A stretch of DNA of 64,000 nucleotides from a virus. Positions 3,443 through 51,600 of this stretch are shown here, piece after piece (within the stretch, counting starts at the first letter, position 1; each line of letters starts with the position of its first letter). Where the stretch lies: IMG/VR virus record IMGVR_UViG_3300021185_003351, positions 62,001 through 126,000 of that record. One strand, written 5' to 3'. The notes under the pieces were generated by a model. The model did not search any database, was not told the origin of the DNA, and was given only the letters and a program-made list of their open reading frames with translations. The position numbers and the translations under genes are program-made.

Positions 3443-4161
3443 TGGGAACAAGTTACTCTCCAAATATAGTAGAAGATGGATTAATATTTCAAGTAGATGC
3501 TGCAAATCAAAGATCATATCCTGGGAGTGGCACTACTGCTACTGATTTAAAAGGTCCGGCAGAAGGAACTTTATCCGCTGGAGCTAGTTTTAATTCTATA
3601 AACTTAGGAGCATTTCAATTCGATGGAATAGACGATCAATTGAATTTTGGGAATGCCGTATCAACTAATATTGCTAATGGTGAAGATTTAACTATAGATG
3701 CATGGATACGATATACTAGTGATACTGGCGGAGAATCTCAATATCCTATGATTTTTACTAGAAGAAGATCAGTTCAAAATCAATCATCTCTAACTAATTA
3801 TTATCTTTATTTACTCGACTCAACAACTTCCGGTGAGAGATCAATTAGATTCTTCACATCTTATACAGATGGAAATATTACTAGTGATCAAACTGTAAAA
3901 ATTAATACTTGGACTCATATATCAGTAACTTGTCAATCTGGACTTAATAATGGAACCTTTATGTATAAAGATACAGAACAAGTAGCTAATTTTAGAGCTG
4001 ATACTGCGGGAGCATCTAATTGTACTACAATAATAGGCGATTCTCCATATTCAAGTAACAATTTTCCAGGTCAAATAGCTAATGTAAAATTATATAATCG
4101 TGCTCTTTCGACTCAAGAAGTTAAACAAAATTACAATGCAATGAAAGCGAGGTTTAGATAA
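3442..4161 (+). CDS. LamG-like (concanavalin-fold) virion protein, array A copy 1
   Basis: 239 residues. The start ATG overlaps the stop of the upstream fibre. It has the layout of all eight LamG-like proteins here: a start motif (VEDGLIFQVDAAN), a Gly/Asp strand (FQFDGIDDQLNFG), a central beta-sandwich with the TWTHISVTCQSG strand, and an end motif (VKLYNRALSTQEVKQNYNAM). LamG/concanavalin folds bind glycans or serve as fibre-tip domains, so a receptor- or glycan-binding appendage is likely. No signal peptide or membrane segment. The family is inferred from motifs only. Confidence 0.75.
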   Translation: MGTSYSPNIVEDGLIFQVDAANQRSYPGSGTTATDLKGPAEGTLSAGASFNSINLGAFQFDGIDDQLNFGNAVSTNIANGEDLTIDAWIRYTSDTGGESQYPMIFTRRRSVQNQSSLTNYYLYLLDSTTSGERSIRFFTSYTDGNITSDQTVKINTWTHISVTCQSGLNNGTFMYKDTEQVANFRADTAGASNCTTIIGDSPYSSNNFPGQIANVKLYNRALSTQEVKQNYNAMKARFR

Positions 4162-4901
4162 TGGGTATAAGAAGAGGTTCTATATCAACTCCAATCATAT
4201 CGGATGGGCTAGTATTCAATATGGATGCTGCAAATAGGGCAAGTACTATGCCTAATACCGATACTACAACAACATTTAATACTGTAGATACTTCTATATT
4301 TGGTTCTATAATAACAGATGGTACTTGGGAAGCTGGACCACCGTTGGCTTTCGATTTTGATGGTAGCGATGGACATATACAGTTTGGTGTTCTTTCTTTT
4401 ATACGAAATGTTTCTGAATTTACTATTTCATTATGGGTTCAAATAAGTAATTTAACTAGTAATTATAGATTTTTTGGAAGTAGACAATCTAGTTCTCCAT
4501 ATGATGGTCTAGGTAGTGAAACTGGTAGCGGTGGTATGGCCGGAAAATTATTTTTTTATTCAATGGGTAATAATCAAGCATTTCCGGCAGTTGGTATAAC
4601 CATGGCTAATGAGGGAATAACTGCAAATAACTGGTTTTTATTTACATGTAGATATGGAAATTCTACACAAGAAATATTTGTAAATGGAAATCCCACAACA
4701 GTAACTCAAGGAAGCACAACAACTAATGTAGCAAGTACCACCGATAATAATTCTACAAATTTTTTGATAGGCGGAGATTCGATAAATTCAGCCGGAAAAT
4801 TAAATGGTAAAATAGGAAATTTTCAAATTTACAACCGTGCCTTATCAGCAACAGAAATCCTACACAACTACAATGCTTTAAAAGGAAGATTTGGGTTATG
4901 A
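4161..4901 (+). CDS. LamG-like virion protein, array A copy 2
   Basis: 246 residues, one-base overlap with the previous gene. Start motif SDGLVFNMDAANRAS and end motif IYNRALSATEILHNYNALKG frame a divergent middle that carries a Gly-rich stretch (GLGSETGSGGMAG) and the strand NGNPTTVTQG. Its DNA at 4201-4237 and 4865-4891 is nearly identical to the ends of the next gene, while the middles differ, as expected for cassette-like duplication or recombination. A carbohydrate-binding adhesin role is inferred. Confidence 0.75.
   Translation: MGIRRGSISTPIISDGLVFNMDAANRASTMPNTDTTTTFNTVDTSIFGSIITDGTWEAGPPLAFDFDGSDGHIQFGVLSFIRNVSEFTISLWVQISNLTSNYRFFGSRQSSSPYDGLGSETGSGGMAGKLFFYSMGNNQAFPAVGITMANEGITANNWFLFTCRYGNSTQEIFVNGNPTTVTQGSTTTNVASTTDNNSTNFLIGGDSINSAGKLNGKIGNFQIYNRALSATEILHNYNALKGRFGL
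4201..4237 (+). repeat. LamG 5' conserved DNA block, copy a
   Basis: Matches 4932-4968 with one mismatch in 37 bases, starting CGGATGGGCTAGTATTCAAT. It encodes the shared DGLVFNMDAAN start motif. Confidence 0.85.
4865..4891 (+). repeat. LamG 3' conserved DNA block, copy a
   Basis: 27 bases identical to 5593-5619 and one mismatch from 20063-20089. It encodes the NYNALKGRF end motif. Confidence 0.85.
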
Positions 4902-5626
4902 AAATAGGTAGCATAACAACAGGTATTATAGCGGATGGGCTAGTATTCAATATGGATGCGGCAAATAGAGCAAGTTATCCTAAAACTGGTACTACTGTTA
5001 CTGATACTATAGATTATGATATAAATACTAATAACACAGGGACATTTAGTAATAATAACAGTAGTACATTCTTTAGTACAGATAAGGGTGGAATATTTCT
5101 TTTTGATGGAATAGATGATTATATAACAGTTAATGGAAGTACTAATTCTGGACTAAATAGACCAGGAATAACAAACCAAATAACATTAGAAGCCTGGTGT
5201 TATACTAGAACTTTTAATAATAATTATGAAAGAATAATAGCACGAAGAATAGTAAATACTCCTTTACCTTATATGTTTGGATTTCATACTGTGTCAGGTA
5301 ATAAATATGATCTTTATTTAAGTGGTAACAGTAGTTATGGGCCTGCATCTTTAAACTCTACTACTAACGTAATATTAAATGAGTGGGTACATTTTGTAGG
5401 TACTTCTGATAATTCTACAAGAAAAATATATTTAAATGGAGTATTAGATAACTCAGATTCATATTCATCTGGGATATTTTCTACAGATATAAATCTTCAA
5501 ATAGGAGCCCAATTAAGCGGTTACAATTATAATGGAGATATAGGTGCTGTTAGAATATATGATCGCGCCTTATCAGCAAACGAAGTTTTACGCAACTACA
5601 ATGCTTTAAAAGGAAGATTCGAATAA
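4898..5626 (+). CDS. LamG-like virion protein, array A copy 3
   Basis: 242 residues; the ATG overlaps the previous stop by four bases (ATGA), suggesting coupled translation. Motifs in order: ADGLVFNMDAANRASYPKTG, FLFDGIDDYITVNG, the EWVHFVGTSDNSTRKIYLNG strand pair and IYDRALSANEVLRNYNALKG. The strand FVGTSDNSTRKIYLNG is typical of LamG/concanavalin sandwiches. A 31-base run near its 5' end is identical to the gene at 19410, about 14.5 kb away. Likely fibre-associated glycan binder. Confidence 0.75.
   Translation: MKIGSITTGIIADGLVFNMDAANRASYPKTGTTVTDTIDYDINTNNTGTFSNNNSSTFFSTDKGGIFLFDGIDDYITVNGSTNSGLNRPGITNQITLEAWCYTRTFNNNYERIIARRIVNTPLPYMFGFHTVSGNKYDLYLSGNSSYGPASLNSTTNVILNEWVHFVGTSDNSTRKIYLNGVLDNSDSYSSGIFSTDINLQIGAQLSGYNYNGDIGAVRIYDRALSANEVLRNYNALKGRFE
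4932..4994 (+). repeat. LamG 5' conserved DNA block, copy b
   Basis: 4932-4968 matches 4201-4237 with one mismatch. 4964-4994 is identical over 31 bases to 19476-19506. Confidence 0.85.
5593..5619 (+). repeat. LamG 3' conserved DNA block, copy b
   Basis: Identical to 4865-4891 over 27 bases; encodes the NYNALKGRF end motif. Confidence 0.85.
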
Positions 5627-6351
5627 TGGGATTAGCACACGGAACAAATATAGTAAAAGATGGATTAGTATTTTATATGGACGCTATGAATTTAAGAACA
5701 TGGTCTGGTCCTCCTTCATATTCAGTAAATTCATTAGTAGGAAGTGTAACGGGATCTATTTTTAATGATACCTCTGGCAGTTTTGGAAATAGAAATAGTT
5801 TTGATTTTGATGGAACTGATGATCGTATAACAACGAATATAACTGGAAATGCTCTATTAGGAAGTAACAACCCATATACTTTTTCAGCTTGGATTAAACC
5901 ATCAAACCCTGGAAGTTCATCAACCCAAGCAATTTTTGGAGGATATAGCCATTGGTCAAACTTTCATTTTTTTGGATTTTTTGTTAAAAATGGTTATGCT
6001 GGCTATTATTATTCTGGTGGCGGTGGTTTATGGGGTCCAAAGTGGGATACAGCAGCAGATACTCCTGTAACAGAAAATGTTTGGCAAAATATTACTTATA
6101 CTTGGACTGGTACTACTGACCAAACAAGAAAAATTTATATAAATAATGTTTTAAAAAAAACTCAAACTGAATCTGGTGGAGGTGGTATAGTAAGTGCGGT
6201 TTTAATGAATGTAGGATCTTTTAGATATATGTCCCAAAATAATTCACATTTTCAAGGTGATATAGGACCAATACAATTATTTAATAGAGCATTATCAACT
6301 CAAGAACTTATCCAAAACTACAACGCATTAAAAGGTAGATTTAGTTTATAA
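5626..6351 (+). CDS. LamG-like virion protein, array A copy 4
   Basis: 241 residues, one-base overlap with the previous gene; last of the first array. Start motif VKDGLVFYMDAMNLRTW, strand FDFDGTDDRITTN, TWTGTTDQTRKIYINNV strand pair, end motif LFNRALSTQELIQNYNALKG. The middle has an aromatic/Gly-rich loop (GYAGYYYSGGGGLWGPKW) absent from its neighbours, a likely binding-surface difference. It is followed by an intergenic gap with a class-1 motif. Confidence 0.75.
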   Translation: MGLAHGTNIVKDGLVFYMDAMNLRTWSGPPSYSVNSLVGSVTGSIFNDTSGSFGNRNSFDFDGTDDRITTNITGNALLGSNNPYTFSAWIKPSNPGSSSTQAIFGGYSHWSNFHFFGFFVKNGYAGYYYSGGGGLWGPKWDTAADTPVTENVWQNITYTWTGTTDQTRKIYINNVLKKTQTESGGGGIVSAVLMNVGSFRYMSQNNSHFQGDIGPIQLFNRALSTQELIQNYNALKGRFSL

Positions 6352-17962: not shown

Positions 17963-18676
17963 ATGGCAATTCGTAGAGGTGAAATAATTACTAGAATTAT
18001 AGAAACCGGTTTAACTCATAATATAGACGCTTCAAATCGTGTAACATATCCTAGATCAGGAGTCAAAGTTTATAATACTGTAGACACAGACATTACCGGA
18101 TCATTTATTAATGATGTAGCATATAACAGTGTATCGCCAGACAATTTTCAATTTGGATTAGATGGAGTAGATGATATAATTAGATTTGAATCTCATTTTG
18201 CTGCTTATGGACAAACAGACATCACATTGTCATATTGGTTTAGATTATTAGGATCTCCTGCATCAGTTTGGCACGGGTTGTCCAACGAAATTGCTACTCA
18301 ACTACCTTTTAGATCAAGAATATTAATCAAAGAAAATTTAGCTCAGTTGTTATACACATTAACTTTAAATGGACAGAAATCAATTACTCCTATTAGTTTT
18401 TCTTTGAATACATGGCATAATGTAGTTATAACCAAAGACAGCATAGTTGGTACCAAAGTATATTTAGACAATGTATATAAAGGTGGTCACTCAACGGAAA
18501 CAGGTGCTATAACTGGAACTAGTAGCACAACAGTAGGAGGTACTGACGTTGGACGTGGTTATGAATCTGGATATTACATGAACGGAAACATGGCCAGTAT
18601 ACATGTTTACGACAGAGCATTATCAGCAACAGAATTAACTCATAATTATAATGCAATGATTGGGAGATTTTCATGA
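17963..18676 (+). CDS. LamG-like virion protein, array B copy 1
   Basis: 237 residues. Start motif IETGLTHNIDASNRVTYPRS, strand FGLDGVDDIIRFE, central TWHNVVITKDSIVGTKVYLD pair, end motif VYDRALSATELTHNYNAMIG. This is the classic LamG layout with the conserved strand NVVITKD..V...VYLDNV. First of three overlapping genes of array B. A glycan- or receptor-binding appendage is the likely role. Confidence 0.75.
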   Translation: MAIRRGEIITRIIETGLTHNIDASNRVTYPRSGVKVYNTVDTDITGSFINDVAYNSVSPDNFQFGLDGVDDIIRFESHFAAYGQTDITLSYWFRLLGSPASVWHGLSNEIATQLPFRSRILIKENLAQLLYTLTLNGQKSITPISFSLNTWHNVVITKDSIVGTKVYLDNVYKGGHSTETGAITGTSSTTVGGTDVGRGYESGYYMNGNMASIHVYDRALSATELTHNYNAMIGRFS

Positions 18677-19413
18677 GTGGAAGAGCCGGCGAAATTATTA
18701 CGGATATTGTTGAAGATGGACTAGTGTTTAATATGGACGCTGCTAATAGAGCAAGCTATTCTAAAACTGGGACTTCTGTCAAAGATACTTTAAATAATTC
18801 ATCTGGAACTTTAACAAATGGATCATCTTTTCAATCTACATTACCTTTAAGTTTTGATTTTGATGGAGCTGATGATGAATTAATTTTTTCAAATAATACT
18901 GCTATTAATAGTTTAGGCACTTTAACTACAGATTTAACATTATCTATATGGTTTAGAAATGAAGGAGCATCTAATGTAGAACAAAGAATATTTGGTATGT
19001 CGACTAATCAAAGCTATACAGGAGGAAGATCAATTTCTGCAGTAATTTATTCAAATAATTTACAATCATATTATCGAGACAATAATGGATATAAATATAG
19101 AAATATTAGCTTTTCAGGTCAACAAAATGAATGGCTTAGTTATACAATTGTATTTCATTCAGGTGATGAAAATGCTACTACTCAATATTTAAATAACGTA
19201 GCTTACTCCGGGATGACAGCAGGACAATCAGGCGTAATATTTCCATCTTCATTTAATTTTGCAGATACTACAATATATCTAGGAAACAATTCTTCGCATT
19301 CAACGCTAGCTTTAGATGGTCAAATTGGCTGTTTTCAAATGTATACAAGAGCATTAAGTGATAATGAAAGAACACACAATTACAACGCATTAAGAAGTAG
19401 ATTTGGAGTATGA
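18673..19413 (+). CDS. LamG-like virion protein, array B copy 2
   Basis: 246 residues; ATGA overlap with the upstream stop. Start motif VEDGLVFNMDAANRASYSKT, strand FDFDGADDELIFS, LSYTIVFHSGDENATTQYLN strand and MYTRALSDNERTHNYNALRS end motif. The central loop region (YSNNLQSYYRDNNGYKYRN) is aromatic and polar, as expected of a ligand-contacting surface, and differs from its neighbours. Confidence 0.75.
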   Translation: MSGRAGEIITDIVEDGLVFNMDAANRASYSKTGTSVKDTLNNSSGTLTNGSSFQSTLPLSFDFDGADDELIFSNNTAINSLGTLTTDLTLSIWFRNEGASNVEQRIFGMSTNQSYTGGRSISAVIYSNNLQSYYRDNNGYKYRNISFSGQQNEWLSYTIVFHSGDENATTQYLNNVAYSGMTAGQSGVIFPSSFNFADTTIYLGNNSSHSTLALDGQIGCFQMYTRALSDNERTHNYNALRSRFGV

Positions 19414-20099
19414 GATTAGGAGAAATTAAAACGGATATCATTGAGAATGGGCTAGTATTCAACATGGATCCAGCTAATAGAGCAAGTTATCCTAAAACTG
19501 GTACTATTGTTACTAATACAATAAACAACAGTACTAGTACCTTAACCAATGGCCCAACATTTTCGGACAGTAATAGTGGAATTATGCACTTTGATGGAAA
19601 TGATGATTATATTAATACTCCATCCAGCTGGACATCATTAGGAACCGGAGATTTTACAGTTTGTAGTTGGTTTAGAGTAGAAGAGGTGCCAGCTGGGAGT
19701 GGTTTTGTTTGGGTAATGGTCGATGCAGGCGGTAATTCTAATTATGCAAATTTAAGAGTTCGATTAAACAATCAAATTCAATTTCAAGCTAGACAAGGAG
19801 GAGGAGGAAGTGTTGAACTAACTTATGGTACTACTTATAGTACAGATACCTGGTATCAAGCAACATGCACAAGAACAGGTACTACAGGAACATTATACCT
19901 TAATGGTATTAATCCTTCATCTCAAACTAATTCTGAGTTTGGTGTAGATCTAGGAGATGAACTTTATATAGGAAATTGGCGAATATTTTCATATGCTTTA
20001 AGTGGGGACATAGGACCAATTCATATCTACAACCGAGTATTATCAGCAAATGAAGTCCTACACAACTACAATGCTTTAAAAGGTAGATTTGGAGTTTAG
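19410..20099 (+). CDS. LamG-like virion protein, array B copy 3
   Basis: 229 residues; ATGA overlap with the previous gene. Start motif IENGLVFNMDPANRASYPKT, strand MHFDGNDDYINTPSSW, TWYQATCTRTGTTGTLYLNG pair and IYNRVLSANEVLHNYNALKG end motif. Its 5' 31-base block is identical to the gene at 4898 and its 3' block nearly so, although the genes are ~14.5 kb apart and their centres differ. This suggests recombination between arrays A and B. Confidence 0.75.
   Translation: MRLGEIKTDIIENGLVFNMDPANRASYPKTGTIVTNTINNSTSTLTNGPTFSDSNSGIMHFDGNDDYINTPSSWTSLGTGDFTVCSWFRVEEVPAGSGFVWVMVDAGGNSNYANLRVRLNNQIQFQARQGGGGSVELTYGTTYSTDTWYQATCTRTGTTGTLYLNGINPSSQTNSEFGVDLGDELYIGNWRIFSYALSGDIGPIHIYNRVLSANEVLHNYNALKGRFGV
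19476..19506 (+). repeat. LamG 5' conserved DNA block, distant copy
   Basis: 31 bases identical to 4964-4994, encoding the NRASYPKTGT segment. Confidence 0.85.
20063..20089 (+). repeat. LamG 3' conserved DNA block, distant copy
   Basis: 27 bases with one mismatch to 4865-4891 and 5593-5619, encoding the NYNALKGRF end motif. Confidence 0.8.
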
Positions 20100-32287: not shown

Positions 32288-32308
32288 TTCAAAAAATTTT
32301 ATTATTAT
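32280..32308 (+). promoter_or_regulatory. Class-2 promoter TTGGAT-N17-TATTAT
   Basis: TTGGAT (32280-32285) overlaps the end of the tail gene; TATTAT (32303-32308) follows after 17 bases. The ATG at 32317 is only 8 bases after the -10-like box, so a 0-3 base leader is predicted. Confidence 0.55.
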
Positions 32309-32316
32309 AGTAATGT

Positions 32317-33645
32317 ATGATAATAATTGACGATGTAGTAGAACTAGATTCGTTGTTACATGAGATTGAAAAAGAAAAATATGTTTTAGTAGTTCCTATA
32401 CTATCAGATCATCAACTTCACCCGATATGTAATAAAATCTCATGTATATACGTATATACTAGTAATGAATTAGAATTCGTTATTCCAATACATCATACAG
32501 AACAAATAACCGGATTTTCAGAACAGTTACACCGTGTTCTCAACTTAGAATCTATATTTGTACATGACAAAAAGTTATGGCTACAAATGGGCGGAAATAA
32601 TAATGTATATGATGTGAAAACTCTATGGTGGTATACATATGGAGAATCATATAATGAAAATCATTATTATACATCAGCTCATAATTTTTATTGGAGGCGA
32701 CATACTAATTTACAACATGTTAATACAATTATTCCATTAATGAAACATGCAGAAATGTGTCAAAAAATACGCAAGTATGCAATGCCAATGATTGTTAATT
32801 CAAAATTAAGTAAGTCATATAAACAATTCAATGAATATTATCCAAAAATATTTTCTGAAATTGAATCTAACGGAATGCAAGTTGATAATTCTTTTAAAAT
32901 GAAAGAGTTAATTACAAATGGACGAGTTTATTCTAATTATCATTATCATACAACTACAGGTCGACCGTCTAATGCATTCCGTGGATTTAATTATGCAGCT
33001 ATGAATAAAGAAGATGGAACAAGAGATGCTTTTTGTAGTAGGTTTGACGCAGGAGCATTAGTGGAATTTGATTTTGATGCATATCATGTAAGATTAATTG
33101 CACAACTAATTGGATATAAATTACCAGCTGGATCAATACATACATATTTTGGTAAATTTTATTTTGGAACCGATTCATTGACTGTAGAACAATATGAACA
33201 AAGCAAACAAATAACATTTAGATTGTTATATGGACATATAGAAAAAGAATTTTTAAAAATTCCATTTTTTAATGAAGTAAATAATTTTGTATATTCGTTA
33301 TGGTCAAAATGGAAATCAAACAAGTATATACAAACTCCAATATTAAAAAGATCTTTAAGTTCAGACAATTTGTCTAACATGAATCAAAATAAATTATTTA
33401 ATTATTATCTTCAAGCATTAGAGACAGAATTTACAGCAAGTCGACTAAATGAATTATCAATACTACTTAAAAATTATAAAACATGTATAATATTATATAC
33501 ATATGATTCTGTACTCTTCGATGTTCCAATTCATGAAGCTAAAGAAATATTACCACAAATTAAAACACAATTAGAAAGAAATAATTTCCCTGTTAAATGT
33601 AAAGTAGGCAATATTTATAGTAAAATGAATGACATCAAGTTATGA
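32317..33645 (+). CDS. Divergent family-A DNA polymerase-like protein
   Basis: 442 residues. The C-terminal ~250 residues align by motif with family A polymerases: TGRPSN (214-219) before motif A; motif A VEFDFDAYHVRLIAQ with D252 at the catalytic Asp; motif B SKQITFRLLYG (K297, F301, Y305, G306); motif C YTYDSVLFDVP with D397. The His and Glu of the usual HDE motif are replaced by Tyr and Ser, and the motif-A Glu by His. The N-terminal ~150 residues may be a degenerate exonuclease domain, since no DxE is seen. The replicative polymerase is the family B gp43 at 49081, so this is a second polymerase. It overlaps the next gene by four bases. Confidence 0.7.
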   Translation: MIIIDDVVELDSLLHEIEKEKYVLVVPILSDHQLHPICNKISCIYVYTSNELEFVIPIHHTEQITGFSEQLHRVLNLESIFVHDKKLWLQMGGNNNVYDVKTLWWYTYGESYNENHYYTSAHNFYWRRHTNLQHVNTIIPLMKHAEMCQKIRKYAMPMIVNSKLSKSYKQFNEYYPKIFSEIESNGMQVDNSFKMKELITNGRVYSNYHYHTTTGRPSNAFRGFNYAAMNKEDGTRDAFCSRFDAGALVEFDFDAYHVRLIAQLIGYKLPAGSIHTYFGKFYFGTDSLTVEQYEQSKQITFRLLYGHIEKEFLKIPFFNEVNNFVYSLWSKWKSNKYIQTPILKRSLSSDNLSNMNQNKLFNYYLQALETEFTASRLNELSILLKNYKTCIILYTYDSVLFDVPIHEAKEILPQIKTQLERNNFPVKCKVGNIYSKMNDIKL

Positions 33646-34901
33646 TAGATAAAATTATTAATGAATGGACATATCAATTAGACGCTGGATATCCAACAAA
33701 AGATTCTGACTATGAAGTTCTTCGTTCTGTTTTACAAGAAACTGATATACTTTCTGAACAAGAAATTGATCAAACAATTCGTCAGGCAAAAGGATTATAT
33801 GAACAAGATCCGGAGTTAGAAAATACACAACTTTTATTGGAAGATGATTTAAGATCAAGACTATTAGATATAAAAATACCTAATGATTTAATTAACATAA
33901 TCATAACTATATATTCTGGATTATCAGATACAGAGAAACGAGAATTTTCAGAAAATTTTAGAATACATTCAATTGAATCATTTGTACAAACAGGATATAT
34001 TCCATTTCGAAAATTTTATAATGTTATACCTGGAGGTGCTGCCTCCGGAATGGGAAGAGGAGAAATGATGGCACTATTAGCAGTAAAAGATTCTGCACCA
34101 GGCGGTACTGAACGTCATGATATTGTTATGTCAAATGGCGAATGGGAAGTTAAAGAATTAGAAAAGAAAGCATTTAGACCAGCAAAAAAAGGAATGGCAT
34201 TTGCTTTTGATTTTGCTCCAAAAATTATAAAATTTTATAATGATATCATTGTTCCATTTTCAAGAATAGGCGATCCTGGAGATGAATTAATACCAATGGT
34301 AGATGATAGATCAAAACCATTAGTAAAAAAATTAATTGACATATTAGAATCTAGATTTGAATCTCTTGCTGATATGAATAAAATTAAAAGTGCTAATGAA
34401 TGGAAACTAATGTTATTTCATAATTGGTATGAAGGATTTAAAGAATTAAATCAATTATTTTATCAAACAAAATTTGATAGTGATGTAAAAGATACAAGAT
34501 TAGTTGTTAAAACCGGAGGCAAAGAAAAAGCATATTGGATATCAGATACAGACGCTGATAATATTGAACTAAAATCAGGAGAAGATGAACCAGCAAATAT
34601 TAATATTGGCGATGCTATTGATAATGTAAATCAAAATATACAAATTTGGTTCAAACGAATTGAATTTAATGAATTTATTAAGAATCCACGAATTTTTATA
34701 GAAGAATTAAATACTGTTAAAAATACATTTTTTAAAGGAGTATTAGGAGTTGTATATTATTTAAAAGAAGCTAAAGATCAAAAACCATATTTATCTAGTC
34801 CTTCTGATTTTCTAATATATCAAATTTCACAAGGTCAATATCGTTTTAGATTAACAAATCATAGTGCTAATAATAAACCATATCAATTAGATCAAAATTA
34901 G
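33642..34901 (+). CDS. Possible PD-(D/E)XK nuclease-fold protein coupled to PolA-like gene
   Basis: 419 residues, ATGA overlap with the polymerase-like gene. A central segment reads GRGEMMALLAVKDS, then ERHDIVMSNGEWEVKELE: a Glu-containing helix, an Asp, then ExK, spaced as in PD-(D/E)XK nucleases. The rest is helical and charged with no other known motif. The remaining C-terminal half (WFKRIEFNEFIKNPRIFIEE) is unassigned. Nuclease activity is an inference from motif pattern only. Coupling suggests joint action with the polymerase, perhaps in DNA repair or end processing. Confidence 0.45.
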   Translation: MIDKIINEWTYQLDAGYPTKDSDYEVLRSVLQETDILSEQEIDQTIRQAKGLYEQDPELENTQLLLEDDLRSRLLDIKIPNDLINIIITIYSGLSDTEKREFSENFRIHSIESFVQTGYIPFRKFYNVIPGGAASGMGRGEMMALLAVKDSAPGGTERHDIVMSNGEWEVKELEKKAFRPAKKGMAFAFDFAPKIIKFYNDIIVPFSRIGDPGDELIPMVDDRSKPLVKKLIDILESRFESLADMNKIKSANEWKLMLFHNWYEGFKELNQLFYQTKFDSDVKDTRLVVKTGGKEKAYWISDTDADNIELKSGEDEPANINIGDAIDNVNQNIQIWFKRIEFNEFIKNPRIFIEELNTVKNTFFKGVLGVVYYLKEAKDQKPYLSSPSDFLIYQISQGQYRFRLTNHSANNKPYQLDQN

Positions 34902-34909
34902 GATAACGA

Positions 34910-35293
34910 GTGAGGACACAACTATTGTGCACATTTGCACATAAAACAAATTTAGACATAGTTACAGAATATATCAAGCAAAACTTCGAAATTCCAGAAA
35001 ACCGAATATTTGTATTTGCAAACTATGAAAACAGAAATGATTTATATTGCACATTCAATGCTGCAGATAACGGATATCGTGGAAAAAATACAATATCAAT
35101 TCACAGAAAAAAAGAAACTAACACATTATATACGGTTAATGCTTTAAATGAAGTTATCAAAGATTTAAACAATGGTATACTAGATAAAACAATGATTTTA
35201 CCATGGGAAGCATTTGAAAATTCTTTTTTATTAACTGATGATAATGGTTATCGCAGGATAGACTTAGTATTTTTTAAAAGAATTAATTTTTAA
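34910..35293 (+). CDS. Conserved T4-like phage protein, unknown
   Basis: 127 residues starting at a GTG 8 bases after the previous stop, with AGGATAACGA just upstream. Contains IFVFANYENRNDLYCTFNAA and KNTISIHRKKETNTLYTVNA, a pattern I recall from uncharacterised small proteins of T4-like cyanophages. No catalytic motif, signal or membrane segment. Function unknown; the context is at the boundary between the polymerase pair and putative head proteins. Confidence 0.6.
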   Translation: MRTQLLCTFAHKTNLDIVTEYIKQNFEIPENRIFVFANYENRNDLYCTFNAADNGYRGKNTISIHRKKETNTLYTVNALNEVIKDLNNGILDKTMILPWEAFENSFLLTDDNGYRRIDLVFFKRINF

Positions 35294-35327: not shown

Positions 35328-36023
35328 ATGATTAAATTAAAAAATTTACTAAAAGAAGGATTTGCATGGGAAAGAAATGCAGATGGATCATTACCCACAT
35401 TAGCAGACGCTACTAGAAATCATCAAAAAAATCTTCAAGAACAATCTTTCAATAGATTACAACCATTAATTGATATGGGATTTGAACTTAAAAAATTAGA
35501 AAATGGTCAAACTGTAGCTACAATCGGTGATAAATCTAATAATGTTGCATTAATAATAGGAACAAATGCTGTATTTAAAGGATTGTATAAAATTAACGGA
35601 CAACAAGGAATGTTAGCTGGAACAATTCCTGCAGGCCCTGGAGACGATGATAAATACATACAACTGATTAAGTCTAAAATTGCAAAAATGGGTATAACAG
35701 AAGTCTTAAAAGACAAAGACGGAAATGTACGAACAGATTTAAAATATAAAGACAATCAAAACTATCAGCCAAGAATTGAATTGAAAAATACAAAAATGGG
35801 TAGTGGTACAAATCTTACAATAACAGTTAGTATAGATGGAAGTTCACCATTTGATATAGAATTTGATGATTATGAAGAAACAGATGATCATGGATATGAA
35901 AAAGCAATCTACTTAATGGGAGCTGACGATGGCGGTAATGAATGGGGTATGGAAGGATCAATGGCATTTCATGGAGAATTGGAAGATTTTAATATTGACA
36001 CATTAGAAAAAATGGAAAAATAA
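35328..36023 (+). CDS. Putative internal head protein 1 (targeting-peptide type)
   Basis: 231 residues. The N-terminus MIKLKNLLKEGFAW is a short basic, amphipathic peptide ending in L-K-E, which fits the (L/I)-x-E cleavage rule of T4 prohead protease gp21 and resembles T4 capsid targeting peptides. The remainder has a beta-rich middle (LNIT V-type strands such as NLTITVSIDGSSPFDIEFDD) and an acidic C-terminus. It overlaps the next gene by one base. A packaged internal or core protein is the favoured inference; function is unknown. Confidence 0.45.
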   Translation: MIKLKNLLKEGFAWERNADGSLPTLADATRNHQKNLQEQSFNRLQPLIDMGFELKKLENGQTVATIGDKSNNVALIIGTNAVFKGLYKINGQQGMLAGTIPAGPGDDDKYIQLIKSKIAKMGITEVLKDKDGNVRTDLKYKDNQNYQPRIELKNTKMGSGTNLTITVSIDGSSPFDIEFDDYEETDDHGYEKAIYLMGADDGGNEWGMEGSMAFHGELEDFNIDTLEKMEK

Positions 36024-36348: not shown

Positions 36349-36978
36349 ATGAATTTTAAAAAGTTAATGAAAAGAATTGGTACTAAAAATCTTCAGGAAC
36401 AAGAAGATCTTTCAATACCATCATTAGGTTTTGATATAGCAGATAAAATTCAAGATGCAGTAGGAGTTTTAAATGACAAAGAAGATGTCATGCAAGAAGA
36501 AATAGCAAGAATTACTGATACCAAAATACTAAAAGAAGTTGAAAAAAATTTAGGAAAGTCTTTAGTCAGTTGGTTAATGGATAATTATTCAAATCCTTCC
36601 TTACTAAATATATCGCTAGCATCATTAACAACTATTACAGATGTAGCGTGGATAACAAAGTCAGTAGAAGATTATACTGCAGATAATGTTGGAGACGGAA
36701 AGATACCTAGTATATTTACATCATTAAAAAAACTAGGGATATTAAATCAAAGATCTTTGGGTAAAGAAATATTAGTATCTATGAAACAATTGAGGTTTAC
36801 ACGAAGTCCGTATAATTCTAAAGGAGGATATTACTATTATGCTCCTCCATCTGAAACATATGCTACTAGGAATAAAGATATAGAAACAACATGGAATAGT
36901 GACATACTTCCAAAAATTGATATGGATGCAGATAAACCGACACTTCAACGTGGTGATATCAAACATACAAATTTATAA
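36349..36978 (+). CDS. Putative internal head protein 3 (targeting-peptide type)
   Basis: 209 residues. N-terminus MNFKKLMKRIGTKNLQEQED resembles gene 36023 (MKR.GTKNL) with an L-Q-E site. The rest is helical (DIADKIQDAVGVLNDKEDVM; KILKEVEKNLGKSLVSWLMD), and the C-terminus has a Tyr/Gly segment (SKGGYYYYAPPSETYA). No enzyme motif was found. The two shared N-termini in tandem are the main evidence for targeting to the prohead. Confidence 0.45.
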   Translation: MNFKKLMKRIGTKNLQEQEDLSIPSLGFDIADKIQDAVGVLNDKEDVMQEEIARITDTKILKEVEKNLGKSLVSWLMDNYSNPSLLNISLASLTTITDVAWITKSVEDYTADNVGDGKIPSIFTSLKKLGILNQRSLGKEILVSMKQLRFTRSPYNSKGGYYYYAPPSETYATRNKDIETTWNSDILPKIDMDADKPTLQRGDIKHTNL

Positions 36979-37075: not shown

Positions 37076-37849
37076 ATGAGTTTAGACTTAAACGCCATAA
37101 AGGCGAAACTTAACCAATTAACAACAACTAACGACAGAAGAAATAACTATTTCAAGCCAGAACCTGGCAAACAAAGAGTAAGAATTGTCCCTTACGTTCA
37201 CAGAAAAGAAAACCCTTTCCTAGAAATGTATTTCCATTATGATATTGCAAAGAGAAGTATGCTCTCTCCAATAACATTTGGTAATGCTGATCCAGTAGTA
37301 GAATTTGCTGAAAAGCTTAAGAAAACTGGTGATAAAGATGACTGGTTAATGGGTAGAAAAATTGAACCAAAAATGAGAACGTACGTTCCTGTTATAGTAA
37401 GAGGTAAAGAATCTGAAGGTGTTAAATTTTGGGGATTCGGAAAAACAATTTATTCTGAATTATTATCTATTATAGCAGACCCTGATTATGGTGATATTAC
37501 CGACTTAATGAATGGAAGAGACATTGACGTTGAATTTACTCCATCAGAAGGTCCTGGTCAATATCCAAAAACAGCTATTAGAGTTAAACCTAATACATCA
37601 GCAGCTACTGAAGATAAAGCAATTGCAAAATCAATAATGGATCAACCTAAAATAACAGATCTATTTCCAGAGCCAACATATGAAGAATTAGAAAAAGCAT
37701 TAAATGATTGGATGAATCCAGAAAGTGCTGACTCTGATACGTCAACTCCAAAAGCTGCAGCAACTCCTGCAACTGAAACAAAATCGAATGATACTGTTAC
37801 TAAAAAAACAGACGTAGCAGAAGCATTTGACGATTTATTCAATAATTAA
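37076..37849 (+). CDS. 32: Single-stranded DNA-binding protein (gp32-like)
   Basis: 257 residues. The start (MSLDLNAIKAKLNQLTTTND) and PGKQRVRIVPYVHRKENPFL, then FWGFGKTIYSELLSIIADPD are typical gp32 core segments. The C-terminus is acidic (DVAEAFDDLFNN), as in T4 gp32 where it recruits partner proteins. There is no cysteine anywhere, so the zinc site of T4 gp32 is absent. It coats single strands during replication and recombination with UvsX and gp41 encoded downstream. Confidence 0.88.
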   Translation: MSLDLNAIKAKLNQLTTTNDRRNNYFKPEPGKQRVRIVPYVHRKENPFLEMYFHYDIAKRSMLSPITFGNADPVVEFAEKLKKTGDKDDWLMGRKIEPKMRTYVPVIVRGKESEGVKFWGFGKTIYSELLSIIADPDYGDITDLMNGRDIDVEFTPSEGPGQYPKTAIRVKPNTSAATEDKAIAKSIMDQPKITDLFPEPTYEELEKALNDWMNPESADSDTSTPKAAATPATETKSNDTVTKKTDVAEAFDDLFNN

Positions 37850-37860
37850 GAAAGTTATAT

Positions 37861-39018
37861 ATGGGAAAGAAAAAGAGCGAACTGGAAGATTCGTTAGCAT
37901 CAGCGCTAGCAGATAGCATTAATAAACAATTTAAAGGACAAAATTACAAGTCAGCATTTTTTCTAGATGGTGATGATGATGCTCCTACAAATGTTAATGA
38001 ATGGATATCTACCGGATGCTCAATGTTAGATTTAGCCATTTCAAATCGTCCTAATGGAGGTTTTCCTGTTGGTAGAATTACCGAAATAACAGGACTTGAA
38101 GCTTCTGGTAAATCATTACTAGCAGCTCATACCTTAGCAGAGACGCAAAAGAAAAATGGATTAGCAGTATATATTGATACAGAATCAGCTAGTAGTGCAG
38201 AATTCTTAACAGCAATTGGCGTAGATTTAAAAACTATGTTATATGTTCCATTAGAAACAATTGAAGAAATATTTGAAACTATTGAAACAATTGTTGAAAA
38301 TGTTAGAAAGTCTGACAAAGATAGGTTAGTAACTATAGTAGTAGACTCAGTAATGGGAGCATCTACTAAAATAGAAATGGCAATGGAATATGATAAAGAT
38401 GGATATGCAACATCCAAATCTATTATATTAAGTAAAGCTATGAGAAAAGTTACTAATTGGATAGCTAGAGAAAGAATATGTTTAATCTTCACTAATCAGT
38501 TAAGAACTAAATTAGGCGTATCTTTTGGAGATCCATGGACAACTGCAGGTGGTAAAGCTTTACCATTTCATTCATCGGTTAGACTTCGTTTAAAAAATAC
38601 TGGTATGATAAAGGCCAGAGTAAACGGAACAGATCAAGTAGTTGGAAATAAAACTAATGTACATGTTGTAAAAAACAGAATGGGGCCTCCTAACAGAAAA
38701 ATTGATTATGAAATATATTATGATAGTGGAATTGACAACTATGGCGGTTGGTTAAATATCATGAAGAATTTCAAATTAGTTTCTCAATCAGGAGCTTGGT
38801 ATTCATTAGATGATGTTGATCCAGATACTGGCGAAGTTCTAGAAACTATCAAATTTCAAAGTAAAGATTTCATAGAAAAGGTAATACAAAATTCCGAAAT
38901 GAAAGATAGACTGTATAATAGAATTTGTGAAGCATATATATTTAAATACAGAGCCGGAATAGATGGTGGTATTGACGATGTAGTAGTTGATGAAGAAGTT
39001 ATAAATGAAGAAGGATAA
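37861..39018 (+). CDS. uvsX: UvsX/RecA-like recombinase
   Basis: 385 residues. Walker A GLEASGKS at 78-85 and a Walker-B-like DRLVTIVVDSVMGAS strand, plus IFTNQLRTKLGVSFGDPWTT (L2-type region) identify a RecA-fold strand-exchange protein of T4 UvsX size. The acidic C-terminus is also seen in the family. It drives recombination-dependent replication and repair together with gp32 and gp41. The next gene's ATG overlaps the stop by one base. Confidence 0.92.
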   Translation: MGKKKSELEDSLASALADSINKQFKGQNYKSAFFLDGDDDAPTNVNEWISTGCSMLDLAISNRPNGGFPVGRITEITGLEASGKSLLAAHTLAETQKKNGLAVYIDTESASSAEFLTAIGVDLKTMLYVPLETIEEIFETIETIVENVRKSDKDRLVTIVVDSVMGASTKIEMAMEYDKDGYATSKSIILSKAMRKVTNWIARERICLIFTNQLRTKLGVSFGDPWTTAGGKALPFHSSVRLRLKNTGMIKARVNGTDQVVGNKTNVHVVKNRMGPPNRKIDYEIYYDSGIDNYGGWLNIMKNFKLVSQSGAWYSLDDVDPDTGEVLETIKFQSKDFIEKVIQNSEMKDRLYNRICEAYIFKYRAGIDGGIDDVVVDEEVINEEG

Positions 39019-40067
39019 TGAATAAATATCAAGAATTATTTAAGCAACTTCAAAAAGAAAAAGAAAGTATTAATCAGAGTCCTGATGATCATATTATGAT
39101 TTTTGATGGACTCAATACTTTTATTAGATCATTTTCAGCAACTCCTTCAACTAACGAAGATGGAGAACATATAGGAGGGATTACAGGATTTTTATATAGC
39201 ATTGGAAAATGTGTTAGAGATTTTAAGCCTTCTAGATGTATCATTGTATTTGATGGGGTTGGTGGATCTAAACGAAGAAAAAAGATTTATAAAGATTATA
39301 AAGGTAATCGTGTTAATAAAACAAGATTGCGAAGACATGATCATCATATGCCTAGTATAGAACATGAGCAAGAAGCTATGAGACATCAATTCAGCAGATT
39401 AGTTTCATATTTAGATGCATTACCAGTTACATTTTTATCAATGGATGGAATTGAAGCAGATGACACAATTGCATATATTACTGAAATGTATGAAGCTAAA
39501 AGTAAAAAAATGACAATTGTATCAACTGATAGAGATTTTTATCAATTAATTAATGATAAAATTCAAATTTGGTCTCCTATTAAAAAGAAATTATATGATA
39601 CAGAAAAATTATTAGATGAGTTTCAGGTACATCCTAAAAACTATGTATTATATAGAGCATTTACAGGTGATAAGTCAGATAATATTCCTGGAGTAATGGG
39701 AATTGGTCCAAAAACTTTATTAAAACATGTTCCTAACTTGGATAAAGAACAAGAATATGAATTAGATGATTTATGGGAAACATGTTATAATAATGTAACA
39801 GAATCAAAAACATATAATAAAATAATAGATAACAAAAATATTATTTCAGATAATTGGAAACTAATGAATCTAAAACTATTAGATATTCCAGCACAAACAA
39901 AAAGTAATATTAGAAAAATTATGGAATCATCAGTATCAGAATTAAATAAGATTGAATTTAGAAGATTATTTATGGAAGACAAAATGTGGTCTGTAATGAA
40001 AAATATGCCAGACTGGTTAAATAACACCTGGTTATCATTGAGTGCATTTGCACAAAAAACAAAATAA
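39018..40067 (+). CDS. rnh: T4-type RNase H (5' nuclease, PIN/FEN fold)
   Basis: 349 residues. Asp-rich FEN-fold sites: IMIFDGLNTFIRSF near residue 27, CIIVFDGVGGSKRRKKIYKD, GIEADDTIAYI, MTIVSTDRDFYQLIND, and the helix-hairpin-helix GDKSDNIPGVMGIGPKTLLK. T4 RNase H removes RNA primers and flap ends on the lagging strand. One-base overlap with uvsX. A 5'-3' exonuclease of Pol I type would be an alternative name for the same fold. Confidence 0.88.
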   Translation: MNKYQELFKQLQKEKESINQSPDDHIMIFDGLNTFIRSFSATPSTNEDGEHIGGITGFLYSIGKCVRDFKPSRCIIVFDGVGGSKRRKKIYKDYKGNRVNKTRLRRHDHHMPSIEHEQEAMRHQFSRLVSYLDALPVTFLSMDGIEADDTIAYITEMYEAKSKKMTIVSTDRDFYQLINDKIQIWSPIKKKLYDTEKLLDEFQVHPKNYVLYRAFTGDKSDNIPGVMGIGPKTLLKHVPNLDKEQEYELDDLWETCYNNVTESKTYNKIIDNKNIISDNWKLMNLKLLDIPAQTKSNIRKIMESSVSELNKIEFRRLFMEDKMWSVMKNMPDWLNNTWLSLSAFAQKTK

Positions 40068-40068
40068 A

Positions 40069-40097
40069 TTGGATTTATTATTTATTTTTTATATAAT
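40069..40097 (+). promoter_or_regulatory. Class-2 promoter TTGGAT-N17-TATAAT
   Basis: TTGGAT (40069-40074) and TATAAT (40092-40097), 17 bases apart. The gp41 ATG (40103) is 5 bases after the -10 box, where transcription would start at about the ATG itself. Confidence 0.6.
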
Positions 40098-40102
40098 AAT
40101 TT

Positions 40103-41458
40103 ATGACAGATAAGTTAAGTGAGTATGGATGGTCGTTTCAAATTAAAGTTTTGGCAGCTATGTTTGTGGATAGAACATTTTTACAACAAATTGCTGATAT
40201 TATACAGTCAGAGTATTTCGAATCTGATGCTAATAGTTGGTTATTAGATATATTACTAGAACATTTCCGTGAGTATAAAACTCCACCTTCAAAAGATGTA
40301 TTAAAAGTTAAAGTAACAGAAATAGATAATGATGTTCTTAAAACTGCAATATTAGAACAATTAAAAGAAGTATTTCGATTTATGGAGTCAGATGATTTAG
40401 ACTTTGTTAAAAATGAAATACTTAAGTTTTGTAAGAATCAAGAAATTAAGCGAGCAATAATGGATTCGGTTAATTTGCTCAAAATGGGTAGTTATGATGA
40501 AATTAAAAGTAAAATAGATTCAGCAATGAAAGCTGGTGCTGACACTGACATCGGTCATGAATATAAAAAAGATGTTATTGCTAGATATACTGAATCAGCT
40601 AGAAACACTATTAGCACCGGATGGGATGTAATAGATGATTTAATGGATGGTGGATTAGCTGCCGGCGAATTAGGAGTAGTTATGGCTCCAGCTGGTATTG
40701 GGAAATCATGGATGCTTATTAATATAGGAGCAAATGCTGTTAAAAAAGGTAAAACAGTTATACACTATACGTTAGAGTTAAATGATAATTATGTAGGTCA
40801 ACGTTATGATTCTGTAGTTACTGGTATTGCTGCTCAGAATTTAAAAAATTACACTGATGATATACAAGAAAAATTAGAGACATTATCTGGAGAATTAATT
40901 ATAAAATATTATCCAACTAAGTCTACTGGTGTTATGGGAATAAAAGCACATATTGAAAAAACAATTATGCTAGGAAATACTCCAGATTTAATTGTAATAG
41001 ATTATGGTGATTTATTAAAAGTAAATACTAAAAAAGATAAGCATGAAGCTTTAGAAGAGTTATATGAAGAAATGCGAGGTATGGCCGGGGAATATAATGT
41101 TCCAGTTTGGACAGCATCTCAAGCAGGTAGATCTGCATTAGAAGATGATGTTATTGAAGCAGATAAAATTGCATCATCATATGGTAAAGTAATGGTTGCA
41201 GATTTCTTAATGTCATTATCAAGAAAAGTTGAAGATAAATTATCTGGTACTGGTAGAGGCCATGTTATTAAAAATAGATTTGGCCCAGATGGTATTACAT
41301 TACCAAGTAAAATTAACACAAATAACGGGCAGTTTGATTTCTTTGAGCCACAAACATCTCAAGGAAGACAGACTACCCAAACAATGAAAACAGGAGAAAC
41401 ATTGGTAAAGAAAAATTTAGCACAAAAATTTAAAGATTTAGGCGGAAGTTTAGGATAA
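40103..41458 (+). CDS. 41: Replicative DnaB-type helicase (gp41-like)
   Basis: 451 residues. Walker A at about 194-203 (MAPAGIGKSWM), LIVIDYGDLLKVNTKKDKHE (Walker B region), VPVWTASQAGRSALEDD (H3) and a RFGPDGI end motif are DnaB/RecA-fold hallmarks. The N-terminal ~150 residues are helical. It unwinds the fork with the primase (not in this window). Class-2 promoter with a near-leaderless start; followed by a terminator. Confidence 0.92.
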   Translation: MTDKLSEYGWSFQIKVLAAMFVDRTFLQQIADIIQSEYFESDANSWLLDILLEHFREYKTPPSKDVLKVKVTEIDNDVLKTAILEQLKEVFRFMESDDLDFVKNEILKFCKNQEIKRAIMDSVNLLKMGSYDEIKSKIDSAMKAGADTDIGHEYKKDVIARYTESARNTISTGWDVIDDLMDGGLAAGELGVVMAPAGIGKSWMLINIGANAVKKGKTVIHYTLELNDNYVGQRYDSVVTGIAAQNLKNYTDDIQEKLETLSGELIIKYYPTKSTGVMGIKAHIEKTIMLGNTPDLIVIDYGDLLKVNTKKDKHEALEELYEEMRGMAGEYNVPVWTASQAGRSALEDDVIEADKIASSYGKVMVADFLMSLSRKVEDKLSGTGRGHVIKNRFGPDGITLPSKINTNNGQFDFFEPQTSQGRQTTQTMKTGETLVKKNLAQKFKDLGGSLG

Positions 41459-49080: not shown

Positions 49081-51600
49081 ATGTATCAAAATATAGCATA
49101 TCATAAGAAAACTGGCACAATGCATGTATGGGATGACGAATTAGGTCATAAAACTTTTAAGTTTACTCCATATGGATATATTCCAGATACAAATGGAGAA
49201 TATGTATCACTAAATGGCACTAAATTATCAAAGACTCCAGGCAATCATAGAGATAATTCAGATGCATATGAATCTGATTTAAATGAAGAGGTTAGAACAT
49301 TAATAGACTTATATTATGAGTCTGATTTAGTATCCACTGGTCATTCCGACTTCTTTTTTGATATTGAAACAGCAAAAGATGCAGATGGATATTCTACTCC
49401 AGAAGATGTTAGAACCGAAATAACATCAATAGCATATTATGACAAAGTTGGCAAAGATAGGAGAGTATTAGTATTGGATAAAGCAAACAGATTATCTGAT
49501 GACATTATATACGGTGATAACTATACTGTTGAGGTATTTGATAATGAAGCAAATTTGCTAATTAAATTTATTAACTATTTTTCAGAAATACAACCTACTG
49601 TTATAACTGGCTGGAATACTGATGGGTATGATATTCCATATCTTATTAATAGAATTAAAAAAGTATTAGGTCCTAAGTCTGCCAATAAATTATCTCCAGC
49701 TGGAATTGTAGAATGGAATAAACATCGTGAAAGATATAAAATATTTGGAGTTTCTAGTTTAGATTATATTAAATTATATAAAAACTTCACATATACAGAA
49801 CTTCCTAATTATAGATTAGATACAGTAGGTAAAACAGAGTTAGGTAAAGGTAAAATTGAATATGATGGTGACTTAGATGATTTATTTGTTTCAGACATTA
49901 ACAAGTTCATAGAATATAATATGACTGATGTTGATCTTGTATATGAGTTGGATGAAAAATTACAATTAATCAACTTAGCAAGAACTATATGCCATAAAGG
50001 ACATGTTCCATATGAAGATGTTTATTACGCATCTAAATATCTTGATGGTGCAGCTATTGTAGATTTAAAAAGAAACGGATTAGTAGCTCCAAATAAACAA
50101 TTTAGATTTGTTGAAGATGAAGAGCAGAATAAATTAGCCGGTGCATATGTTATGCCTCCTATACCAGGCCTATATAAATGGATATACGATTTAGATTTAA
50201 CATCTCTATATCCATCCATCATAATGAGCCTTAATATATCTCCAGAAACTAAAATAGGTGTTATTCCAAATTGGAAACAAGAATCATTGCTAAGTAAAGA
50301 GCCTGTTAGTGTAGTATGTAACGGCCAGACTATTCCAGATATTAAACAATGGCTAATTGATAATAAATTTACTGTTGCAAGTAATGGAGTAGTATATGAT
50401 ACTAGAAGTAAAGGATTCTTACCAAAGATATTAGAAAAATGGTTTGATGAACGTGTTAAATTTAAAAATGAACGAGATAATCATGAAGTAGGAAGTGATA
50501 AGTATAAATTTTATGATGCAATGCAATTAACACAAAAAGTATTGTTAAATTCATTTTATGGAGTATTAGGATTAAAGACATTTAGATTTCATGATTTAGA
50601 TAACGCAGGAGCTATCACAGCAACTGGCCAAAGTGTTATTAAATTTTCTGCAAAAGTTATTAATGGGTACTATAAGAAAGAAGTTGGTAAAGATTATTTT
50701 ATTAATGCTAATGGCAATAAAGCAGAATTTTCATTCTATACAGATACAGATTCAACATTTGTATCTAGTTTACCTTTAATAGAAAAAAGATATCCTGGAT
50801 TTGATGAATCTGATGAAAAGTTTATGATTGAAAAAACAAATGAAATAGCATCTGAAATACAATCGCATGTAAATAAAATGTATGATCAATATGCAGTTCA
50901 TTTTCATAATACATTTGATCATAGATGGCAAATTAAACAAGAATATGTTGCTAAGTCTGGTCTGTGGATAGCAAAAAAGAGATATGCTCAGTGGGTAATA
51001 TTTAAAGAAGGTAAACCTACGGATAAAATGGATATAAAAGGATTAGACGTAGTCAGATCATCTTTCCCTACTGAATTTAAAACTATAATGAAAGAAACAT
51101 TATGGTATATACTCAAAGAAAAGTCAAAGAATGCCACAACTAACTTAATAATGGATTTCAAAGACAAAATACAAGATTCTCCAATATTGGATGTCATGAA
51201 GAATACAGGTGTTAAAAATATCACAAAGTATACTAAAGGAAGAAAAACATTATCTGGATATCCATTAGGAACCCCAGTACATGTTAAATCTTCAATAAAT
51301 TACAATGATATGCTTAAACATTTAGGTATAAATAAAAATGCAAAAAACTTTGCAGATATACAAAATGGAGATAAGATTAAATGGGCGTATCTTAAAACAA
51401 ATCAAATGGGGTTTGATACCATTGCACTTAGAGGTTATGAAGATCCAACCCAAATAACAGAATTTGTTGAAAAATTTATTGATAGAAATAAAATATTTGA
51501 CAGAGAGATACGTGGAAAGTTAGATGACTTTTACGCATCAATGAATTGGGATAAACTTCCTGAAAATAATAATATGAATAAGTTCTTTTCATTTGGATAA
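49081..51600 (+). CDS. 43: DNA polymerase, family B (gp43-like)
   Basis: 839 residues, near T4 gp43 (898). Exonuclease motif I FFFDIETAKDADG (D94, E96), TGWNTDGYDIPYL (motif II), polymerase motif A DLDLTSLYPSII (~370-380), motif B KVLLNSFYGVLG and motif C YTDTDST (D555, D557). The C-terminal MNKFFSFG resembles a clamp-binding tail. It is the replicative polymerase used with gp45/gp44/gp62 encoded downstream. The stop overlaps a class-2 promoter. Confidence 0.95.
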   Translation: MYQNIAYHKKTGTMHVWDDELGHKTFKFTPYGYIPDTNGEYVSLNGTKLSKTPGNHRDNSDAYESDLNEEVRTLIDLYYESDLVSTGHSDFFFDIETAKDADGYSTPEDVRTEITSIAYYDKVGKDRRVLVLDKANRLSDDIIYGDNYTVEVFDNEANLLIKFINYFSEIQPTVITGWNTDGYDIPYLINRIKKVLGPKSANKLSPAGIVEWNKHRERYKIFGVSSLDYIKLYKNFTYTELPNYRLDTVGKTELGKGKIEYDGDLDDLFVSDINKFIEYNMTDVDLVYELDEKLQLINLARTICHKGHVPYEDVYYASKYLDGAAIVDLKRNGLVAPNKQFRFVEDEEQNKLAGAYVMPPIPGLYKWIYDLDLTSLYPSIIMSLNISPETKIGVIPNWKQESLLSKEPVSVVCNGQTIPDIKQWLIDNKFTVASNGVVYDTRSKGFLPKILEKWFDERVKFKNERDNHEVGSDKYKFYDAMQLTQKVLLNSFYGVLGLKTFRFHDLDNAGAITATGQSVIKFSAKVINGYYKKEVGKDYFINANGNKAEFSFYTDTDSTFVSSLPLIEKRYPGFDESDEKFMIEKTNEIASEIQSHVNKMYDQYAVHFHNTFDHRWQIKQEYVAKSGLWIAKKRYAQWVIFKEGKPTDKMDIKGLDVVRSSFPTEFKTIMKETLWYILKEKSKNATTNLIMDFKDKIQDSPILDVMKNTGVKNITKYTKGRKTLSGYPLGTPVHVKSSINYNDMLKHLGINKNAKNFADIQNGDKIKWAYLKTNQMGFDTIALRGYEDPTQITEFVEKFIDRNKIFDREIRGKLDDFYASMNWDKLPENNNMNKFFSFG

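Follow-up and report, generated by a model that had tools for sequence, protein, structure and literature searches.

Two largely independent elements appear to lie side by side in the T4-like phage described here: an accessory family-A DNA polymerase of the divPolA1 family and, directly behind it, a slot for interchangeable nucleases that would be packaged in the head and injected, a reading to which we assign a probability of about 0.5. The window, that is, the whole stretch of 64,000 nucleotides analyzed, comprises bases 62001–126000 of a 172,973-base virus record; positions below refer to the window unless stated otherwise, and the genes and elements placed between 32299 and 41458 lie on its plus strand. 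PHROG and Pfam matches in the genome include a gp21-type prohead protease (PHROG 207, E=6.7e-57), a clamp, a clamp loader-like protein, a ligase, SSB, UvsX and PolB, and the portal, scaffold and major capsid protein were named by reading the sequence. The family-B replicase, to which the earlier note on this DNA had pointed, is encoded at 49081–51600, and a Toprim_2 (DnaG-type primase-like) gene is also present. Clusters of paralogues of about 240 aa starting ..IVEDGLVFNMDAANRASYPKTGT.. were observed at 3442–6351 and 17963–20099, and also at genome bases 150551–152639. The novelty lies in the second gene and not in the polymerase: the polymerase belongs to an already published family, and the exchangeable, nuclease-like and head-targeting-like slot protein is undescribed as far as literature searches reach.

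The gene behind the polymerase is a cassette slot with an exchangeable body. As the earlier note had stated, an open reading frame of 442 residues (32317..33645) is followed by a second one (33642..34901), and the two share a four-base overlap, ATGA. Alignments and locus comparisons divide the 419-aa product of the second into a conserved N-terminal domain (residues 1–51; 33642..33794), which starts with the capsid-targeting sequence (CTS)-like M-I-D-K-I-I-N-E and forms three helices in the AF2 model (residues 2–12, 21–34 and 39–49), and a swapped body (33840..34898). In loci collected by similarity, which form a non-random sample, this N-domain of about 52 residues recurs behind divPolA1 in 92 of the 107 with enough downstream sequence, while the remainder of the protein does not; BLAST linkage sorts the bodies into at least 16 unrelated families. 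Loci L150 and L149 have polymerases and N-domains that are both 100% identical and bodies that are unrelated, and the same holds for L132 and L027 at 99.1% polymerase and 98% N-domain identity. L132 also shares a 78%-identical body with L143, with polymerases only 39% identical. Identity at the nucleotide level breaks off within about 15 codons past the L-x-E region; it picks up again either at the stop codon or in the 127-aa gene that follows. Mapped onto a maximum-likelihood polymerase tree, the body types switch at least 29 times, against a possible minimum of 12. Assembly chimeras are an unlikely source of the swapping because the junctions are in frame, use the same linker and recur across many lineages and samples. 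One copy, L084/L197, is frame-broken. New bodies would enter by recombination, anchored by the constant sequence on both flanks.

Extra GIY-YIG/HNH homing endonuclease-like ORFs, named by reading, were observed between divPolA1 and the slot gene in L023, L050, L126, L134 and L136, and a ferritin-like ORF occupies the left border of the slot instead in L140 and L166. T4-like intronless homing and marker-exclusion endonucleases resemble the slot bodies as variable nucleases at a fixed site that are spread by recombination. The bodies might accordingly be free-standing nucleases of this kind, cutting other slot alleles and being copied in by recombination, with selfish spread driving their diversity. 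The many alleles at a single site with conserved flanks would fit this, as would a tract of 80% identity between L132 and L143 that spans the body through the 127-aa gene in a co-conversion-like manner and the insertion of GIY-YIG/HNH-like ORFs at the slot too. However, a homing nuclease has no need to be fused in frame to a constant N-domain with a protease-like site at its end, and homing would not account for a structural-class promoter; in these two features the slot gene differs from T4-like homing endonucleases. Lineages with an empty slot also persist. We consider this explanation unlikely.

The slot is embedded in a kept gene order, namely a 757-aa gene, a 219-aa gene, divPolA1, the slot, a 127-aa gene, ssb, uvsX, a 5'-3' exonuclease gene and dnaB. 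The downstream order is conserved for ssb in 59/60 loci, uvsX in 50/51, the exonuclease in 23/23 and dnaB in 16/16; in the window, the ssb–uvsX–5'-3' exonuclease–DnaB helicase cluster, assigned by PHROGs and this conserved order, occupies 37076..41458. The 127-aa gene (34910..35293) delimits the slot on the right and is present in 100/103 loci. In some lineages, the polymerase and the 127-aa gene have nothing in between. The 127-aa gene (conserved ..IHRKKETNTLYTVNALN..) was observed to adjoin divPolA1 even at such empty slots; the actual partner of the polymerase may be this gene.

The earlier note had proposed that the polymerase and the second protein form a repair or defense-evasion pair. 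In such a joint action, the N-domain might dock any nuclease onto divPolA1 or the replisome. A search with the N-domain alone, for which a subfamily profile was used since the all-subfamily profile was too diverse for a collection scan, found the polymerase directly upstream in 47/48 loci, and a search with the body alone found N-domain and polymerase in front in 42/42 untruncated cases. This near-exclusive adjacency and the four-base overlap favor docking; placement directly behind and overlapping the polymerase in nearly all loci could mean coupling and not chance. Some functional coupling is therefore possible, and the tight link keeps the docking explanation alive. Nevertheless, several lineages keep the polymerase without a slot gene, bodies swap freely beside polymerases that remain unchanged (99–100% identical), and the slot gene has its own promoter, of a separate, structural class. 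Furthermore, the Flavobacterium phage immuto encodes its N-domain protein far from divPolA1, a few genes upstream of terminase. This protein, gp078 (L180:4992–6053), combines the N-domain with an E..D..IEIK body in an isolated, cultivable phage. Taken together, joint action of the two proteins is decidedly unlikely.

Two promoter-like classes were observed: TATTTATA..TAAA, which stands mostly ahead of structural genes, and TTATTATAxTAATA, which precedes replication genes. The earlier note had given the pair a class-2 promoter of its own. A class-2-like AT-rich element, TTATTATTATAG, does precede the polymerase (32299..32310; consensus only), and similar elements are found before ssb and some other replication genes, but the second gene has its own class-1 promoter-like TATTTATA (33612..33619), located inside the polymerase 3' end, 30 bases before the slot-gene start. 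In the window, the tail sheath, tail tube and baseplate hub genes are among the structural genes that TATTTATA also precedes, and elsewhere it stands before the portal gene. Of 119 nonredundant loci, 104 have TATTTAT in the interval -75..+60 around the polymerase stop, as compared with 6.7% and 4.0% in control windows; at loci with a different coding sequence, the motif is located past the stop codon. The class-1 motif stays at its position when the slot is empty and is thus tied to the site no less than to the slot gene. Early transcription of the slot gene from the promoter of the polymerase is another possibility.

The proposal that the slot protein is delivered from the head draws on T4, which injects a small number of internal proteins, most of them unexplained. 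T4 gp21 cleaves after L/I-x-E, thereby stripping N-terminal targeting sequences off the injected internal proteins (PMC9026906). The gp21-type protease encoded in the present genome is one hint towards the head, and the structural-class element before the slot gene is another. A prohead-protease-like site following this motif, L52-Y-E↓Q55 (33795..33806), lies in a disordered linker of the slot protein and falls in residues 53–61, the sole segment of the model with pLDDT<50. The motif [LIV]xE[AQSG] is present in the linker behind the N-domain in 36/50 linker-nonredundant proteins; the corresponding figures are 8.9% for equal windows elsewhere in these proteins and 20.7% for shuffled linkers. 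The strict L/I-x-E-type motif is missing from 14/50 linkers. An [ILV][ILV]xE start is shared by 106/112 distinct N-domains and, within this phage, by gp21, gp22 and the set of genes starting MIKLK(D/N)ILxE. The capsid-targeting likeness of the N-domain is limited to its first 8 residues, and Trp comes directly after the first L/I-x-E; both points count against the head-targeting reading.

Other genes with comparable starts were observed. A gene with a short capsid-targeting-like N-terminus, MIKLKNLLKE↓G, and a class-1 promoter is located at 35328..36023, and one with a CTS-like N-terminus ending NLQE↓Q, recognized from the sequence, at 36349..36978. A battery of genes at L063:103–6145 (genome bases, outside the window) and in L068 has near-identical N-termini, MIKLK(D/N/S)(I/L)LxE, on unrelated bodies; these genes look like those of capsid-targeted internal proteins, and several have a class-1 promoter. 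In Microcystis phage Mel-JY01, near the same place (L059:10976–12262), the start MQFKQYILGE↓SS is joined to an S-adenosylmethionine lyase domain (Pfam E=4.4e-10), making this protein a candidate head-delivered anti-restriction enzyme.

Under the proposed mechanism, the slot gene would be made late, from the structural-class promoter within the polymerase end, and the N-terminus would steer the precursor into the prohead core. There, the gp21-type prohead protease would cut after L-x-E and free the nuclease within the head, and the freed nuclease would be injected with the genome and cut host or rival-phage DNA. The swapping of bodies behind a constant N-domain is evident from the locus comparisons, whereas we infer the nuclease fold, the cleavage, the packaging and the target. 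T4 IPI, IPII, IPIII and Alt are likewise capsid-targeted, gp21-processed and injected. The slot protein shares with them a head-targeting-like N-terminus and the L/I-x-E site, bodies that vary between related phages and a likely role in host conflict. In contrast to T4 internal proteins, its bodies are large and nuclease-like, its packaging is putative, and its folded N-domain spans 52 residues as opposed to a T4 CTS of 10–19 aa. Given that it lacks such a short CTS, the slot protein is classed as working like the T4 internal proteins and not as a member of that group. The layout, with a constant N-terminal delivery part and an exchangeable toxic or enzymatic C-terminal part, is that of polymorphic toxins and polyvalent proteins (PMC5512222). 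Unlike polymorphic toxins, the slot is a phage gene with a prohead-protease-like site and a structural-class promoter, and no immunity gene was seen.

The bodies are likely nucleases, mostly PD-(D/E)XK-like. The E...D...ExK pattern reported for the second protein was recovered in its body family, in which E141, D160 and K171 are invariant and E169 is conserved in more than 90% of 23 sequences. The second largest family has the pattern SEL..SD..SLK; profile comparison joined several families, including that of immuto gp078, by a G[RK]GE..D..VK core. Visual inspection pointed to D..[ES]xK-like patterns in many other families and to HNH-like segments in one. The bodies resemble PD-(D/E)XK and type II restriction enzymes (weakly LlaMI) in the E..D..(E/S)xK core, a likeness that extends to the predicted helix-strand-strand order around it. 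The slot-protein model (pTM 0.69) shows an order of elements compatible with a restriction-endonuclease-like core. Conversely, the bodies differ from PD-(D/E)XK enzymes in having no significant family or fold match, and for this reason the nuclease reading is held as likely and not more. Pfam and NCBIfam scans of all body types gave no significant family, just scattered weak matches, the best being RE_LlaMI (E=0.009). Profile searches of the PDB with the bodies returned nothing, and Foldseek against the PDB with the model of the slot protein in the window found no match below E=0.6. GTDB genomes searched with this body type yielded 18 pattern matches, none of them confirmed as a relative.

The same lack of family or fold matches would suit a body that is a structural or DNA-binding internal head protein, with variability arising from anti-restriction or packaging roles as for T4 IPI. 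Variability is a trait of the T4 internal proteins, some of which inhibit restriction (PMC9026906); the Mel-JY01 SAM lyase with its CTS-like N-terminus near the same place points in a similar direction. However, the two largest body families each have an E/D/K triad without variation, and D..[ES]xK-like patterns recur in many others. A non-nuclease internal protein seems unlikely.

The polymerase itself (32317..33645) is an accessory family-A DNA polymerase with a truncated thumb and a degenerate exonuclease domain. Pfam DNA_pol_A matches it at E=1.2e-7 (31.4 bits, slightly below the cut-off of 34.3), PHROG 17 DNA polymerase at 7.8e-13 and a Klenow profile at 5.5e-8 over residues 181–422. Structure models were built from alignment rows of the window and IMG/VR only, and the AF2 model of the polymerase (pLDDT 91.9, pTM 0.89) matches Klenow in Foldseek with E=6e-22 and TM 0.80, bearing out the PolA-like fold expected in the earlier note. 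The motifs listed there were found as well: TGRPSN at residues 214–219, both catalytic Asp residues and K..F..YG of motif B. Relative to Klenow, D705 (D252), D882 (D397), R668 (R216), H734 (H275), K758 (K297), F762 (F301), Y766 (Y305) and Q849 (Q366) are kept, whereas E710 is changed to H257, R754 to Y and the HDE, noted earlier as missing, to YDS (YD[S/A] across relatives). R216, D252, H257, K297, F301, Y305, Q366 and D397 show no variation among 40 relatives with identity down to 36% or in three outgroups, and the residue equivalent to H734 is likewise invariant in the 40 relatives, which argues for selection on catalysis. Motif A (D252-F-D-A-Y-H257; 33070..33087) retains the catalytic Asp and places His at the Glu710 (steric gate) position; in motif C (D397; 33505..33507), YTYDS replaces VHDE. 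The Klenow alignment predicts that these motifs converge in the palm. In keeping with the truncated thumb, Pfam DNA_pol_A positions 1–94 are without a match, IESNG leads almost straight into GRVYSNY, and residues 186–217 of the AF2 model contain no thumb helices. In agreement with the reported lack of a clear exonuclease, no conserved exonuclease carboxylates (DxE or another set) were apparent when the N-terminal 140 residues of 22–40 relatives were read.

These properties are those of divPolA1, which was published from 14 phages including immuto as a polymerase with a truncated thumb and an inactivated 3'-5' exonuclease, accessory beside a regular replicase and located upstream of ssb-uvsX-exonuclease-DnaB (Yutin et al. 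2024, PMC11348598). The polymerase in the window is 30% identical over 92% to that of immuto (gp001). The two share the family-A palm with catalytic Asp, the truncated thumb, the dead exonuclease and the downstream replication genes, with no essential difference. The earlier view that no such module was known therefore does not hold for the polymerase. No mention of the invariant His at the steric gate, or of the slot gene behind divPolA1, was seen in the consulted text of that description (PMC11348598). divPolA1 is encoded on at least 549 IMG/VR contigs. It co-occurs with PolB in the genome studied here, Mel-JY01 and four other IMG/VR records, and in immuto it stands alongside a separate canonical 778-aa PolA. 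A match in Bacillus SBSphiJ was rejected: it is the C-terminal half of a PolA that is split but looks ordinary, and it lies outside the divPolA1 family.

The polymerase occupies its conserved location with an intact active site, and an accessory gap-filling and recombination role would be the simplest reading. It most likely fills gaps in lagging-strand maturation and recombination together with the neighboring SSB, UvsX and 5'-3' exonuclease, with PolB as the probable genome replicator and divPolA1 as accessory. Replacement of the steric-gate Glu by a His (H257) that is invariant across the family could instead suggest a primer-making or RNA-synthesizing enzyme, and PolA folds have been co-opted as RNA polymerases in T7-like phages (PMC11348598). 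Nevertheless, the TGR, O-helix and Gln849-type residues are of the DNA polymerase type, and the Toprim_2 gene already present makes a primase role unnecessary. RNA or primer synthesis is thus very improbable.

Overall, the observation behind the earlier note was confirmed and its interpretation gains partial support, with the reading as a pair tentatively replaced for the most part; the slot reading explains the pair-like look of the polymerase neighborhood. The analysis also enlarges the divPolA1 family, from 14 genomes to environmental phages in the hundreds. We further propose, tentatively and at somewhat under even odds, that marine and freshwater T4-like phages use one dedicated late locus to arm the capsid with a nuclease of interchangeable type, which would be injected to strike first at the host chromosome or at rival phages. 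If true, the slot bodies would be a source of nuclease families matching nothing in Pfam, the N-domain would offer a natural tag by which enzymes could be brought into T4-like heads, and these phages would possess a modular arsenal for injection that compares with the polymorphic toxins of bacteria.
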